A stretch of 64,000 nt of DNA from Aliikangiella marina (lineage in GTDB: Bacteria; Pseudomonadota; Gammaproteobacteria; Enterobacterales; Kangiellaceae). Position 1 is the first letter of the stretch, and each line of letters starts with the position of its first letter. Of the stretch, positions 52,451 through 59,579 are shown piece by piece. A model generated the notes under the pieces. That model was given only the letters and a program-made list of their open reading frames with translations, did no database searches and was not told the origin of the DNA. Both the position numbers and the translations under genes were made by a program. The stretch lies in the NCBI RefSeq assembly GCF_007004765.1, contig NZ_VIKR01000001.1:1054001-1118000 (forward strand), in the 5' to 3' direction.

Positions 52451-52463
52451 CATGGGGATTAAC

Positions 52464-53837
52464 ATGCTCAAATCTTTTATTTTAAACGTTAGTTTGCTTC
52501 AGCTTTTCATTCTGTGTCTTTCGCTCAGCCAACCGTCTTCAGCGAGTGATTTTGAACAAGGCAAGGTGATCGATTATTCTCCCAGTATTTTGTCGCAAAG
52601 AGACCGAGTGGAGCCAGCAAATCGAATCATTCTTGACCGCTTAAATAACTTATTACCTAAAGTCATGGCTGAAACAGACATCGATCTGTGGCTAGTTATC
52701 AACCGAGAATACGAAGAAGACCCATTATTTTATTCTTTAGTACCTCATACCACTTTCGCAGCGCGCCGCACCACCATGCTAGTGTTCAGTAAAGATGAGC
52801 AGGGAAACGTTGAACGTTTTACAGTAAGTCGTTATCCGATCACCGGGTTTTATGAGACTCGTTGGGAAGGTGGTTCACTGGACGAGCAATGGAAACGTTT
52901 AGGTGAAATTATCGCAGAGATTGATCCCAAGAAAATCGCTATCAATACCAGCGAGCATTGGCCCCTCGCGGACGGGCTCACACATGGTTTATATAGGCTG
53001 CTCTATGATGCGTTGGACGAAAAGTATCGCGAACGATTAGTTAGCGCTGAACCACTGGTAATCCGTTGGATGGAAACGCGTACTGCCGCGGAATTGGATA
53101 TTTATCCGCATGTTGTCAATATCGCCAGGAGTGTCATCGCTGAAGCTTTTTCAAGCAAGGTCATTACGCCCGGTGCGACCACAACAGACGATGTTGCTTG
53201 GTATATTCGCGAACGATTTGAATCACTTCAATTGCGTCCTTGGTTTCAACCCTACGTAAATGTGCAGCGCAAAGGGGATAAAATCGACAAGGACTCGCCA
53301 TTTTTCGGTGCATCAGGCGTGGTGATCAAGCCTGGTGACGTATTACATACTGATGTGGGAATATGTTATTTGAAGATGTGTACCGATACTCAAGAAATGG
53401 GGTATGTTCTTCGTTTAGGCGAGTCAGAAGTTCCTCAAGGCTTGGTAAAGGCTTTAGCAGTCGGTAATCAATGGCAAGATAAGTTTACGGATGAGTTTAA
53501 AACTGGTCGAACGGGCAATGAGATCCTGGCCAAAACTAAAAAAGCGATGAAAAGAGCTAAAATTTTGGCGAGCACTTATACCCATCCAATCGGATTTGTT
53601 GGCCACGCGATTGGCCCTACGATAGGTATGTGGGACAACCAAGGTAATACGCCTGTAAGAGGTGATTGGAAACTATTTCCCAACACAGCTTATGCGATCG
53701 AGGGCAATATCAAAACCCAGGTCAAGGAATGGGATAATCAATGGGTTCAGATTAAACTAGAGCAAACAGCTGTTTTTAATGGTAAAAAAGTTATCTATTT
53801 AGCTGGCCGACAAACCGAGTGGCATGTTGTGCGTTAA
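52464..53837 (+). CDS. Secreted M24-family metallopeptidase (Xaa-Pro aminopeptidase-like)
   Basis: The 457-residue protein (from the ATG at 52464, chosen because GGGGATT lies just upstream; the ATG at 52452 lies in the terminator tail) has a signal peptide ending at PSSAS. The M24 pita-bread metal ligands can be followed: HTDVGICYLKMCTDTQE (two Asp), HPIGFVGHAIGP (His), AIEGNI (Glu) and QIKLEQTAVF (Glu). It would trim N-terminal residues from peptides in the periplasm or outside. Confidence 0.88.
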   Translation: MLKSFILNVSLLQLFILCLSLSQPSSASDFEQGKVIDYSPSILSQRDRVEPANRIILDRLNNLLPKVMAETDIDLWLVINREYEEDPLFYSLVPHTTFAARRTTMLVFSKDEQGNVERFTVSRYPITGFYETRWEGGSLDEQWKRLGEIIAEIDPKKIAINTSEHWPLADGLTHGLYRLLYDALDEKYRERLVSAEPLVIRWMETRTAAELDIYPHVVNIARSVIAEAFSSKVITPGATTTDDVAWYIRERFESLQLRPWFQPYVNVQRKGDKIDKDSPFFGASGVVIKPGDVLHTDVGICYLKMCTDTQEMGYVLRLGESEVPQGLVKALAVGNQWQDKFTDEFKTGRTGNEILAKTKKAMKRAKILASTYTHPIGFVGHAIGPTIGMWDNQGNTPVRGDWKLFPNTAYAIEGNIKTQVKEWDNQWVQIKLEQTAVFNGKKVIYLAGRQTEWHVVR

Positions 53838-54392: not shown

Positions 54393-55577
54393 TTATTTAA
54401 GAGACGCAAACGATTGAGTTGCAGTAGTTGAATTAAAACGCAACTCAAAATAAGGCATAAGTCTTTGTTTTATATGATTTATAATAGTCTCAAAATCTTT
54501 GCAGAAAACGCTGGGGTTGGCAAAACCGTTAGCGTCGGACCAGCGGGTGACCAATGGGCCACTACCACAAATTTTTTTAAATTCACAATCTTGACATTTT
54601 TGTACAAGATTTATCGAATTAGAGTAAACGGCTTGCCAGAGAGGATCTTCGGTGACTTGTTGAAGTTGATGCGTTTCAATATGTATTTTACTGATTGGTA
54701 GATTCTCAATCATTCGAAGGTCGTCAGTTGCTTCCAAATGGCCATCAGTTAATAGGGTAACGGTGGAAATGAAACCGTATCCTTGAATGCTACTCTTGCC
54801 GCCGACGAGTTGACACATCATCCCATCCAATAATCTGATATTAACCCCCAAATCAAGATATTTATCGAGATATTCATCAAATAGCCGGCAATAATAGTCA
54901 GCGATAGAGAGCTCCTTGTGACCATAATGTAAGTGTGGGATCAAGACATCAAAGTTATACACTTGCAGCTTATTCACAAATAAGTCGATCTGTTCGACAG
55001 GTGAAACTTCAGGGGAAGCGACACTCAGCAAATACACCGGTATACCATGGCGTTTGATGCGTCTTATCTGATTGATAGTTCGTTCAAAAGTACCTCGTCC
55101 TTTGTGATCGATACGGTATTGGTCATGGACTAACTGACTACCGTCTAGACTCACGCCCAGTAGAACTTTAAATTGCTTGATACTGGCCAACCATGCTTTA
55201 TCTAACAACAGGGCGTTGGTTTGCATTGAAAGTTTAAGCTCACAGCCCGTTTCAGCTTGAATAGCAATAAGGCTTTCGCACAATCGATTGAATTTTTCCA
55301 ACGGATAAAGTGTCGGTTCGCCACCATGAAAAGCGATAGATATTTTGTTTAGCTGATATTCTAGAAGGTGTTGGCGAAGTTTTTCTAGAAATAAGTCAAT
55401 GTGTTTGTCGCTTATTATTTTGGGGGACTGGAGCACTAAGGGGTCTTCAAACCAGTAACAATAAGTACAGCGAATATTGCATCGACTTGCGAGTTTAATA
55501 ATGAACTCGTTTACAACTGGGTATTCAATGTGCCCACTTGTACCGTCGAGACCGTTTAGAAAGTGTAAATGACTCAC
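54393..55577 (-). CDS. Radical SAM peptide-modifying enzyme with SPASM-like C-terminus
   Basis: The 394-residue protein starts with the radical SAM site SRCNIRCTYCYWF (Cys33, Cys37, Cys40, binding one Fe-S cluster), followed by FHGGEPTLYP (GGEP, 85-88), LSMQTNALL, and VSLDGSQLVHDQYRIDHKGRGTFERT. The C-terminus has CQDCEFKKICGSG (Cys328, 331, 337) and NPSVFCKDF (Cys359), a SPASM/Twitch-like second-cluster site. This layout is typical of RiPP maturases that make thioether or C-C cross-links. A short repeat-rich peptide gene lies upstream on the same strand; I see it as the substrate. Start at ATG 55577. Confidence 0.88.
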   Translation of the reverse strand: MSHLHFLNGLDGTSGHIEYPVVNEFIIKLASRCNIRCTYCYWFEDPLVLQSPKIISDKHIDLFLEKLRQHLLEYQLNKISIAFHGGEPTLYPLEKFNRLCESLIAIQAETGCELKLSMQTNALLLDKAWLASIKQFKVLLGVSLDGSQLVHDQYRIDHKGRGTFERTINQIRRIKRHGIPVYLLSVASPEVSPVEQIDLFVNKLQVYNFDVLIPHLHYGHKELSIADYYCRLFDEYLDKYLDLGVNIRLLDGMMCQLVGGKSSIQGYGFISTVTLLTDGHLEATDDLRMIENLPISKIHIETHQLQQVTEDPLWQAVYSNSINLVQKCQDCEFKKICGSGPLVTRWSDANGFANPSVFCKDFETIINHIKQRLMPYFELRFNSTTATQSFASLK

Positions 55578-55630
55578 TTAGACTGGGTTAACTAAACTTT
55601 AATGGTATTTGCTAAACGATTAAGCAAAAG

Positions 55631-55684
55631 AGCGAACAATAACAAATTAAAACGGCGTTATTATCTGAGGTGCCACTGTTCGCT
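55631..55684 (-). promoter_or_regulatory. Inverted repeat between precursor and radical SAM genes
   Basis: AGCGAACA (55631-55638) and TGTTCGCT (55677-55684) pair perfectly with 38 bases between, and an inner pair AATAAC/GTTATT can shorten the loop. On the minus strand a CTTTTGC stretch follows. It lies just past the peptide gene stop and before the enzyme start, where partial terminators often set the ratio of peptide to enzyme in RiPP operons. Termination here is inferred. Confidence 0.45.
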
Positions 55685-55697
55685 TTTTTCGCAGAAT

Positions 55698-55904
55698 CTA
55701 GTTGCCTTTCTCGCGATGTTCTTTTTGATCGGGCTGTTCTCGATGTTCTTGCTGATGAGGTTGTTCTCTGTGCTCTTGTTGATCAGGTTGTTCTCGATGG
55801 GCTTTCATCAAATCGTCACTTTGCGTGTCGCGCATAGCATCGAGTTTTTTTATTAACTGCGGTGATAATTGTGCTTTTTGTTCCCCTGTTGACGTTGATT
55901 GCAT
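55698..55904 (-). CDS. Candidate RiPP precursor peptide with three 9-residue repeats
   Basis: The 68-residue peptide starts at ATG 55904, with AAGGA about nine bases upstream; a longer frame to 55967 lacks this site. The first 35 residues look like a leader (LSPQLIKKLDAMRDTQSDDLMKA). Then follow HREQPDQQE (36-44), HREQPHQQE (45-53), HREQPDQKE (54-62) and a partial HREKGN (63-68). Repeated cores with fixed residues (His, Arg, Glu, Gln, Pro) and a radical SAM gene directly downstream on the same strand fit a RiPP precursor. There are no Cys, Ser or Thr in the repeats, so cross-links at His, Arg, Glu or Gln would be expected. No family is recognised. Confidence 0.65.
   Translation of the reverse strand: MQSTSTGEQKAQLSPQLIKKLDAMRDTQSDDLMKAHREQPDQQEHREQPHQQEHREQPDQKEHREKGN
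55719..55799. repeat. Three 27-bp tandem repeats inside the precursor gene
   Basis: The three repeats are each exactly 27 bases (nine codons) and encode HREQP(D/H)Q(Q/K)E on the minus strand. They differ by several bases each but few residues, so the peptide rather than the DNA seems to be held constant. A fourth, partial unit (HRE) follows at the C-terminus. Confidence 0.85.
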
Positions 55905-56240: not shown

Positions 56241-59200
56241 GTGAACAGACGCGCACTCGTTAAATCTCAAAACAAGATTAAAACTTGTTTCTTCTCCTGC
56301 ATTTTCAATTTGTCATTGTTGATTGCCGCGCTGATGATGTTCAGCGTTAATGGTGCTGGTTATGCACAGGATTTTCTTGACCAGATTTGGGCACCAAAAT
56401 TTAAACTTTACACAGTGGATAATGGGCTTTCCCAATCACAAGCCAAGGTAATCATCCAAGATAGTGAAGAATATATTTGGTTTTTGACCCCAGTCGGCGT
56501 TGATCGGTTTAACGGTTATGAGTTTGAAAATATTACTTTCAGTAAAGATTGGGAGCGAAAACCTGATAGCAGTGTCGTTAATATTGTGCTCGATAACGAT
56601 AATACCGTAATCGCTATTACCGACACAGGACATGTGTACAAATACTCCGAGTCAAAGCACCAATTTGTCGGTTTATTTAAAAGTGACACACAAGCGAAAG
56701 TCAATACTGCACTAATAAACGACGCGAATGAAATCTTACTGATGACAGAACAGGGGATTCAGGCGCGTCAACTAGAAACTGGCGCGATACTGGATGAAGG
56801 TTTTCAGGCACTGCAGACAATTCGCCAAGTGAACCACGCTCAAATTAATAAAAATATACTCTGGATGGCAACAAGTGAAGGACAGCTATTTTCGTTTCAT
56901 TTCGCAACGCAGCGGCTTGTGGCGCACCAGCTAAGCCAATTGAACATTCTCCAGGGGGAAAATCACCTTGAACTAACGCCCTATCTTGATGGTGTCATCG
57001 CCGCTTCTCGAAATGGCCAGTTTTACGCTTTAAAACATACTCAGATAAGAGCGAATCGCTTACCGGATTTTATCGGGGTCGAAGAACAACCCAAGAAAAT
57101 CATGAGCATGGTGGTCGATGCCCTCCAGAATTTATGGATCTCAACACGAGGACAGGGTATCTATCGCATCAATCTAAGTAACTATAACGGGCGTCAGTAC
57201 GCGTTACAGACTAACCGGCAAGGCACAGTGAGCTCTAACAATCTCTACGACATGTTTATCGATAAACAAGGAGGGCTTTGGGTCGGTGCGGCTAACGCTG
57301 TCAATTACACGAATGCAGAGCAAGTCAGATTCTATGGTCTCGGTGGTACGAGTGCTTATCATATGCCACTAACCTCTACCTACGTGTCGGCGATACTTGA
57401 GGACTCCGACGGCAATTTGTTGGTAGGCTCACATGATTCTGGTTTTAGTGTTTTGTCGGCTATAGATAGTCATCAGAATAACACTAAATCTCTCGCTAAA
57501 TCGCAACGGGCTAAGTTACCTTATCAATTAGAGAAGTATCCTAAACCTAAGTTTATTACCGGAATTGCTCAAGAAAGTAATGGCAATATTTGGATAGGAA
57601 CCCGAGAAGAATTTTTTATTATCGATAGCTTAACACGGGCTCGCGTACCAATAGACGCTAAGTGGCAGGAGTATTCGAAAAATGGCGTGAACGCTTTACG
57701 TTTTGATGGCCCGCACAAATTAATGGTGACAGGCGATAATCAATTATTATACCAGCATGGCGATGATGAATTAGTGGCGCTAGATATCTTTTCAAATCCA
57801 CAACCTTTCCAGTATTTCTCTGTCACAGGCCCCTTCGAAGAAAAGTATTGGTTATCCTCGGAGAGTAAAGGATTTGTTTTTGAGTTTGACGTGGCGACTC
57901 AAACTATTACTTTGCTAACCCCATTAACTCGCACGAGTGTGCCACCGACGGGCATAACAGCAACTTGGATAGCTTCAGATAATACGCTTTGGCTAGGCAC
58001 TGATGGGGATGGCGTAATCAGTTTTAATCTGACCACGAAAGAAACAGAATGGTGGGATAAAACCAATGGACTGCCACACAATGATATTTTTGGAATCTTG
58101 GGAGATGGCAACGATAATGTTTGGATTATGGGTAATAAAGGTCTTACTCGGTTTGATGCGCTAACGCGCGTAATCCAAAATTATACCGTTTCCGACGGCC
58201 TGCAAAGCAATGAGTTTAATCACCAGGCAATGTATCGTAATCAACAAGGTTTGTTATTTTTTGGCGGTATCAATGGAATTACTATCGTCAACGAAAATAC
58301 ATTTAGCCTGAATGCTCACTTACCCAAGACGCATATCGAGGCGGCTTATTTGGTGACCAATAAAGGTCTTCAAAGGTTGACTACCATTGATGGTATCGTT
58401 CAAGAATTGGATTTCACCACGGATTCTTTAAGCTTTAAAATCGGTGCTATCGACTTGCTTAACCCAGATCGAAATACATTTAGTTATCGTCTCGTTGGCA
58501 AAAGTGATGAATGGATAGAATTAGGTCGAACGAGAGATATCACCTTACTAGAATTACCCCGAGGATCATATCGCCTTGAAGTAAAATCCTGTAATAATGA
58601 AGGTGTATGTAATCCGGAACCCGCGACGTTACGTTTTGAAATCCCTGCGGCGCCGTGGTTTAGTGTTTGGGCTTATGTACTTTACAGTCTTGCATTATTA
58701 TCACTTTTCTTGGTCTTTATAAAAAGACAAAAAGCCAAATTAGAATATGAAAAAATGATGACTCAAAAAGAAAGAGTTGTCGCAGATGAACTACGTGAAC
58801 TTAACCAATTAAAAGATCAATTTTTATCCAATACTTCGCATGAGCTTAGAACGCCATTGAATGGGATAATTGGTTTAAGTGAAGTGCTGATGATCGAAGC
58901 TGAAAATACCGGAAAAAAAGACACTTTGGAGTCACTAGAAGCAATCAATAATTGCGGAAAGCAGTTAAAACTACTCGTAGAGGATTTATTGGACTTCACA
59001 CAATTACAAAGTGATCGATTGAGACTGCATATGAGCCGAGTTAATTTACTCGACATCGTTGAAGAAATAACATTGTTACTGAAGCCGCAAGCGGAGAGTA
59101 AGGGCTTGGAATTATTGGTCCAAATTCCTAACGACGATTGTTTAGTCAAAGCCGATCCTAACCGGATCCGTCAAGTGCTTTATAACCTTATCAGTAATGC

Positions 59201-59579
59201 AATAAAATTTTCGCATAAAGGGAAGGTTACGGTTGCGGTCAATCAGCAAGACTTTATCGTTACAATAGCTGTGAGTGATGAAGGTATTGGAATTCCTGAG
59301 AATATGCATGAGAAAGTCTTCGAGTCCTTTACTCAAGTTGACGGTAGTGATACTCGTGCAGAAGGCGGTGTTGGACTTGGACTTGCGATTAGTAAAAATA
59401 TAGTGAAGTTACACGGTAGTCAATTAAGTTTATCTTCGCAAGAAGGTGTTGGCTCTGTATTTCAATTTGAACTTTTATGCGCATCTTTAGATGAGGTTGC
59501 AAGCGCCGATGTTTTAAATCGTAATAAAAATATAGCAAATGAAAAAATGGCCAATGACACTGAAATTAACACCATTTAA
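56241..59579 (+). CDS. Sensor histidine kinase with two-component-regulator propeller
   Basis: The 1112-residue protein has a signal/anchor segment, two seven-bladed propellers made of reg_prop-like repeats (LWMATSEGQLFSFH, LWISTRGQGIYRINL, GLWVGAAN, IWIGTREEFF, LWLGTDGDGVISF, VWIMGNKGLTRFD; about residues 50-700), a Y_Y_Y domain (about 720-800), a membrane segment (about 810-830), and a kinase with FLSNTSHELRTPLNGIIGLSEV, the N-box LYNLISNAIKFSHKGKV, DEGIGIPEN and GVGLGLAISKNIV. No receiver or DNA-binding domain follows, and no partner is adjacent. The propeller would sense an external, perhaps glycan or peptide, signal. The start is a GTG at 56241. Confidence 0.92.
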   Translation: MNRRALVKSQNKIKTCFFSCIFNLSLLIAALMMFSVNGAGYAQDFLDQIWAPKFKLYTVDNGLSQSQAKVIIQDSEEYIWFLTPVGVDRFNGYEFENITFSKDWERKPDSSVVNIVLDNDNTVIAITDTGHVYKYSESKHQFVGLFKSDTQAKVNTALINDANEILLMTEQGIQARQLETGAILDEGFQALQTIRQVNHAQINKNILWMATSEGQLFSFHFATQRLVAHQLSQLNILQGENHLELTPYLDGVIAASRNGQFYALKHTQIRANRLPDFIGVEEQPKKIMSMVVDALQNLWISTRGQGIYRINLSNYNGRQYALQTNRQGTVSSNNLYDMFIDKQGGLWVGAANAVNYTNAEQVRFYGLGGTSAYHMPLTSTYVSAILEDSDGNLLVGSHDSGFSVLSAIDSHQNNTKSLAKSQRAKLPYQLEKYPKPKFITGIAQESNGNIWIGTREEFFIIDSLTRARVPIDAKWQEYSKNGVNALRFDGPHKLMVTGDNQLLYQHGDDELVALDIFSNPQPFQYFSVTGPFEEKYWLSSESKGFVFEFDVATQTITLLTPLTRTSVPPTGITATWIASDNTLWLGTDGDGVISFNLTTKETEWWDKTNGLPHNDIFGILGDGNDNVWIMGNKGLTRFDALTRVIQNYTVSDGLQSNEFNHQAMYRNQQGLLFFGGINGITIVNENTFSLNAHLPKTHIEAAYLVTNKGLQRLTTIDGIVQELDFTTDSLSFKIGAIDLLNPDRNTFSYRLVGKSDEWIELGRTRDITLLELPRGSYRLEVKSCNNEGVCNPEPATLRFEIPAAPWFSVWAYVLYSLALLSLFLVFIKRQKAKLEYEKMMTQKERVVADELRELNQLKDQFLSNTSHELRTPLNGIIGLSEVLMIEAENTGKKDTLESLEAINNCGKQLKLLVEDLLDFTQLQSDRLRLHMSRVNLLDIVEEITLLLKPQAESKGLELLVQIPNDDCLVKADPNRIRQVLYNLISNAIKFSHKGKVTVAVNQQDFIVTIAVSDEGIGIPENMHEKVFESFTQVDGSDTRAEGGVGLGLAISKNIVKLHGSQLSLSSQEGVGSVFQFELLCASLDEVASADVLNRNKNIANEKMANDTEINTI

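Follow-up and report, generated by a model that had tools for sequence, protein, structure and literature searches.

Triceptides are described as peptides with bonds between residues i and i+2, and Ala, Arg, Asn, Asp, and Ser are the acceptors named in the accessible part of the source, with Glu not among them there (PMC11002830). According to the same partial text, HaaB forms a C2(His)-Cbeta(Ala) bond, YhhB forms both C3(Tyr)-Cbeta(Arg) and C2(His)-Cbeta(Arg) bonds, and the ScaB peptide is still cross-linked when its His is mutated to Tyr (PMC11002830). The YhhB triceptide system corresponds to NF041707 (Sugiyama et al. 2022, JACS, via the accessible part of PMC11002830). Our literature search, which was thin on chemistry journals, found no triceptide linking His to Glu in the partial texts that it returned.

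We analyzed a stretch of 64,000 nucleotides from Aliikangiella marina (the window), in which a peptide gene and a radical SAM gene lie next to each other (Table 1). Our best reading, to which we give odds of roughly two in three, is a minimal triceptide-type RiPP cassette from an uncurated subgroup of three-residue-cyclophane enzymes, with up to four predicted His C2-Glu Cbeta rings in the peptide. The two-gene triceptide-type cassette is real, has an unusual core, and is, as judged from its sequence, probably functional; the preliminary description of the locus as a RiPP system made of a radical SAM/SPASM enzyme and a repeat-core precursor is supported in outline.

Table 1. Features of the peptide-enzyme locus and the adjoining kinase gene (window positions)
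Feature	Position	Strand	Remarks
Radical SAM/SPASM maturase, 394 aa	54393..55577	-	GTG start; YhhB/FxsB/XyeB neighborhood; predicted three-residue-cyclophane-forming
Spacer with hairpin	55578..55697	-	run of 14 pairs
Precursor peptide gene, 68 aa	55698..55904	-	leader ~residues 1-35, core 36-68; ATG start
Partial unit 4, HREKGN	55701..55718	-	residues 63-68
Core unit 3, HREQPDQKE	55719..55745	-	residues 54-62
Core unit 2, HREQPHQQE	55746..55772	-	residues 45-53
Core unit 1, HREQPDQQE	55773..55799	-	residues 36-44
Sensor histidine kinase	56241..59579	+	divergent; Reg_prop, Y_Y_Y, HisKA, HATPase_c

The peptide is as first described, with 68 residues and three 9-residue units of the form HREQP(D/H)Q(Q/K)E followed by an incomplete fourth. 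Its ATG is preceded, 6 nt on the 5' side, by AAAGGAAG, by eye a likely ribosome-binding sequence; a mechanical ORF list opens the same ORF at an upstream TTG, for 89 aa. The underlying DNA repeat (55714-55799) has a period of 27 and 3.2 copies (TRF). Comparison of the three pairs of full units gave 4/1, 3/1, and 5/2 synonymous/nonsynonymous codon changes (P = 0.004, 0.022, and 0.005, respectively, against uniform random substitution). With most differences between the copies being silent, the DNA seems to have drifted under a conserved protein sequence, and the repeat is no chance low-complexity stretch. The DNA pattern CAYMGNGARCARCCN (HREQP or HSEQP) occurs four times in the genome, three times as these core units. 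There is no Cys in the 68 aa, neither in the leader of about 35 residues nor in the core, where sactipeptides and ranthipeptides carry theirs.

The enzyme motifs named in the preliminary description were all confirmed, on the same strand and downstream of the peptide: CxxxCxxC is C33/C37/C40, GGEP occupies residues 85-88, and the second cluster is C328/C331/C337/C359. All of them are invariant across 19 aligned sequences, namely, the window and 18 of the 19 loci from the collection scan presented below (L048, 27% identical, was excluded). In Pfam, Radical_SAM alone exceeded its cutoff. Among the best 25 of 75 NCBIfam families, YhhB (NF041707) came first with 249.4 bits (cutoff, 445), followed by FxsB (TIGR04269; 206.8 bits, cutoff 370), XyeB (TIGR04496; 197.2 bits, cutoff 450), and anaerobic sulfatase maturase (TIGR03942; 146.3 bits, cutoff 349), so that each match missed its cutoff. 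YhhB, FxsB, and XyeB are all families of maturases that form cyclophanes; the usual motifs of FxsB and XyeB begin with Phe or Trp. The 6 of the 18 homologous enzymes that were run against NCBIfam scored 257 to 287 bits with YhhB (260.3 for the congener), all under 445 as well, so the window enzyme apparently belongs to a subgroup close to YhhB that has not been curated.

The closest structures to the AlphaFold model of the enzyme (pLDDT 83.7, pTM 0.83) were four ChlB chains with the precursor ChlA bound (identity 30-31%; query TM 0.81-0.84, target TM 0.85-0.88; lowest E 3e-28), and ChlB also came first by sequence comparison; sulfatase maturases were the next structural matches. The maturase is thus related to known 3-CyFEs by similarity only, below the curated cutoffs. 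PADLOC matches to viperin (54 bits, enzyme) and PDC-M43B (28 bits, kinase) were dismissed as general similarity of radical SAM and ATPase parts, respectively. A viral home was also rejected, the sole match to a viral contig having 29% identity and covering residues 26-207 only.

We then looked for the cassette in relatives. One of the six other genomes of the genus (G006, locus L031) carries a close enzyme, 52% identical, and among 40 family genomes, the window's own included, this close form was found in these two genomes only; the enzyme of G019 is a distant form. In G006, a 56-aa ORF ends 127 nt upstream of the enzyme. Its leader, KLNQKLQSMMDTVDDN, is like that of the window peptide, LIKKLDAMRDTQSDD, and its core reads YTENPHDKN-YTENQQKN, where Tyr replaces the His of the window while Glu at i+2 and the 9-residue spacing are unchanged. 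The two precursors share the motif [H/Y]-x-E-[Q/N], with P after it in some units of both species. Their alignment score was reached by 3/5000 shuffles of the congener peptide for the whole, 29/5000 for the leader, and 102/5000 for the core, a comparison that rests on two sequences because only two species in the material searched have the close subgroup.

An adjacent precursor with an aromatic(i)-x-x(i+2) core, in which His or Tyr is allowed, is what marks a triceptide locus, and the window has one, although Glu is not among the acceptors named in the accessible text. From the His chemistry of HaaB, YhhB, and ScaB, as reported in the accessible part of the source, one would expect His to supply the ring and Glu at i+2 to accept the bond. 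The preliminary description had excluded aromatic cyclophane chemistry; this fails because His is a ring partner in HaaB and YhhB (again in the accessible text), YhhB is the nearest family, and Tyr takes the place of the repeat's His in the congener. Its statement that no described RiPP class fits falls too, given triceptides with a His partner such as those of HaaB and YhhB. What stood is that, of the residues it named (His, Arg, Glu, Gln, or Pro), His and Glu are plausibly involved, and it is plausible that each repeat is one modification site.

We propose that the enzyme would bind the leader, perhaps through LSPQLIKKLDAM, by eye a helix-like segment, and that its CxxxCxxC cluster would reduce SAM. 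In each H-R-E unit, a hydrogen would be taken from Cbeta of the Glu in third position, and this Cbeta would be coupled to C2 of the His ring at position 1. Each unit would become a three-residue His-Arg-Glu ring (-2 Da), with up to four rings along the repeat (-8 Da), and the congener's enzyme, of the same type, would form Tyr-Glu bonds in Y-T-E. We infer leader binding, hydrogen abstraction, bond position, ring number, and the fate of the product from the family. A triceptide-type enzyme could also join other residues of the unit in a different ring, for instance His to Arg at i+1 or by a bond in which Gln or Pro takes part, and Arg is the YhhB acceptor (accessible part of PMC11002830), while Q or N follows Glu in both species and P occurs in some units. 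We nevertheless regard a different bond as unlikely, since Arg is replaced by Thr in the YTE of the congener and the triceptide bonds described in that source run from i to i+2, where the conserved pair is His/Tyr and Glu.

The congener has an additional 206-aa ORF (L031:5477-6097) that overlaps the enzyme stop. By eye it is 2OG-Fe(II) oxygenase-like, with an HxD...H...R pattern that we take to be the one typical of such proteins, and it is a candidate new tailoring enzyme. It had no match in Pfam, NCBIfam, or PADLOC, and its PDB hits were limited to two chains at E 0.2; its single-sequence fold, with a pLDDT of 33, was too poor to be of use. Its similarity to the YhhC-like protein of Blastococcus (see below) was not significant, and it had no match in the window's genome, by a search whose empty answers say little. 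An M20 peptidase gene without known link lies downstream of it.

A collection scan keyed on two short peptide patterns yielded 19 loci, including the congener, with enzymes 27 to 52% identical to that of the window, from Alpha- and Gammaproteobacteria, Actinomycetota, Chloroflexota, Gemmatimonadota, and Bacteroidota. In the enzyme tree, the window and the congener are joined at 88/96, with many open forks and long branches elsewhere. Repeats are frequent in the cores of the upstream ORFs, examples being FYRRFYRR, FDRCFNKFDRCFNK, NFANYAM, and YSKGDRYSKADRYSKAE. As a measure, we counted how often the commonest triplet with F, W, Y, or H in first place occurs in the best same-strand ORF within 900 nt at each of 20 loci, among them the window, the congener, and L048; the background was counted per ORF. 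A score of at least 3 was found upstream in 14/20 loci against 15/2621 other ORFs of the same sequences. For a score of at least 2, the figures were 16/20 and 150/2621, an excess that is weaker evidence because 150 background ORFs reach it and several ORFs were tried per locus. The window scored 4 and the congener 2; the score of 2 at L048 is probably due to chance. The four loci below 2 showed, by eye, FDR/YSR/YDR (L032), WYHRFFRRFYTRY (L041), one YSK (L043), and YSR/YAR in another frame (L033).

Searches at the level of order, class, and phylum covered samples of 394, 369, and 398 genomes. The order and class samples contributed 12 homologues of lower similarity, of which 2 showed a repeated core by eye, L055 with HGSAHGSGHASGH and L062 with YSQSGGGDYSQSGGG. 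The phylum sample gave three further matches, L078 to L080: L079 has AFRRG repeats, and neither L078, a strong homologue from the same genus as L079, nor the weaker L080 has a repeat core within 900 nt. The preliminary description had named homologues of the enzyme without a conserved repeat peptide as evidence against it; the closest homologue and most collection loci have such a peptide, while 10 of the 12 distant homologues show no obvious one and L078 shows none within 900 nt.

These related loci bear on whether a ring is formed at all. A non-cross-linking change of Glu or Gln in each unit (epimerization, hydroxylation, or dehydrogenation) would be in keeping with a tie to cyclophane enzymes that consists of sequence and fold similarity below curated cutoffs. 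Such chemistry needs neither an aromatic residue at position 1, which stays Tyr or His, nor the aromatic triplets that recur in related loci, and we think it has poor odds. That the repeat stays unmodified as a His-rich metal-binding or structural element, which units rich in His, Glu, and Gln could be, while the enzyme works on another target, perhaps as a sulfatase maturase (the next structural match), is very improbable, as both genes stay side by side in two species with differing visible flanks beyond the kinase, YhhB outscores sulfatase maturase by 249 to 146 bits, and repeat peptides lie upstream of other family members too.

The upstream cores of L055:1225-1404 (HGS/HAS) and L062:878-1288 (Y-x-Q-S-GGG) are candidate His- and Tyr-type precursors, respectively. 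In Blastococcus (L032), the homologue is followed by a gene above the cutoff of YhhC, an oxygenase family named for cyclophane peptides (166 versus 150 bits). This single ORF (L032:6143-7822) combines the YhhC part with a weak peptide-arginase/UPF0489 match (below cutoffs), and hydroxylation and Arg-to-ornithine conversion of the same peptide are possible. The alphaproteobacterial Y-x-R precursors (L033-L041, L045, and L049) mostly share a leader like GxSRRxFLDRLKxxGxGFGAA, with variants in L040 and L041. NCBIfam returned nothing above cutoff for 10 precursor ORFs, those of L035, L036, and L037 matching TAT-type families below cutoff. Because these leaders resemble a twin-arginine signal, the Tat system may export the modified Y-x-R peptides. 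In L047:4522-4977 (Mesorhizobium) and L042:4741-4995 (Ktedonobacterium), aromatic repeats precede a C-terminal helix-like stretch (SLDEILQRL and AALLGRLRAQL, respectively), an arrangement that would fit recognition through a follower instead of a leader. L044:3432-3674 (Gemmatimonadota) and L046:4647-4982 (Bacteroidota) have near-identical FDRCFNK repeat cores with one Cys per unit, a likeness that suggests horizontal transfer or strong constraint.

Around the pair, we evaluated the spacer and the flanking genes. The precursor and the enzyme are 120 nt apart, and the fold of the spacer (88 of 120 nt folded) has an MFE z of -2.3, equalled by 5/200 shuffles. The congener spacer folds too (z -3.2; 0/200 shuffles as good). 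The hairpin is possibly a partial terminator or processing site; a terminator scan made no call on it. A gene for a family M24 peptidase (52452-53837 on the plus strand) is convergent with the enzyme gene and ends about 550 nt past its end. It has no match in the cassette-bearing congener and shows no sign of linkage. The earlier statement that transport and protease genes are absent nearby thus holds for transporters, none having been found among 13 window proteins scanned (48.5-62.8 kb), and is not literally true for proteases. Neither of two window flank genes sought in G006 was found there; the G006 contig starts just behind its kinase, which limits the flank comparison.

The kinase, 1112 aa with a propeller-type sensor part, adjoins the peptide gene divergently. 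The congener has a kinase in the same place, 43% identical over 1092 aligned positions, even though the two loci carry different genes past the enzyme. A query of the first 802 residues, with up to 25 candidates scored per genome, found the kinase in 3/40 family genomes (E <= 1e-60), the window's own included. In the third, G012, no peptide-enzyme pair lies beside the kinase and the enzyme had no match, which weakens the kinase as a strict cassette gene. Its position is suggestive of a tie to the cassette and hints at regulation, with the kinase as a putative member. A bolder version, in which the ladder of His C2-Glu Cbeta rings yields a self-signal sensed by the divergent propeller kinase, for communication or feedback and not as an antibiotic, strikes us as rather unlikely. 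The adjoining kinase offers a starting point for tests of why such peptides are made by bacteria.

If the triceptide-type reading is true, glutamate would be added as a partner in histidine cyclophanes, and the natural His/Tyr exchange between related enzymes would be a handle on what sets the aromatic choice. Several like rings per peptide from a two-gene cassette would also make a useful biocatalyst.

Among the known systems, YhhB is the best family match of the window enzyme and, in the accessible description, likewise a SPASM enzyme that acts on Tyr or His at position 1 of three-residue motifs, but its acceptor is Arg, whereas the window cassette would use Glu, has nine-residue tandem repeats, and shows no oxygenase. 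FxsB and XyeB are the second and third NCBIfam matches, with scores under their cutoffs. ChlB/ChlA (PDB 9gm3 and 9gmc) is the closest solved structure; the radical SAM domain of ChlB is described, in the part of the source available, as fused to an alphaKG-HExxH hydroxylase domain, unlike the 394-aa window enzyme, for which Radical_SAM alone exceeded its Pfam cutoff. HaaB and ScaB, likened to the window by chemistry and not by sequence, share the three-residue ring from His C2 to Cbeta, with Ala as the acceptor in the text accessible to us. The tolerance of ScaB for a His-to-Tyr change, as given there, parallels the apparent natural swap of His and Tyr between the window and its congener.
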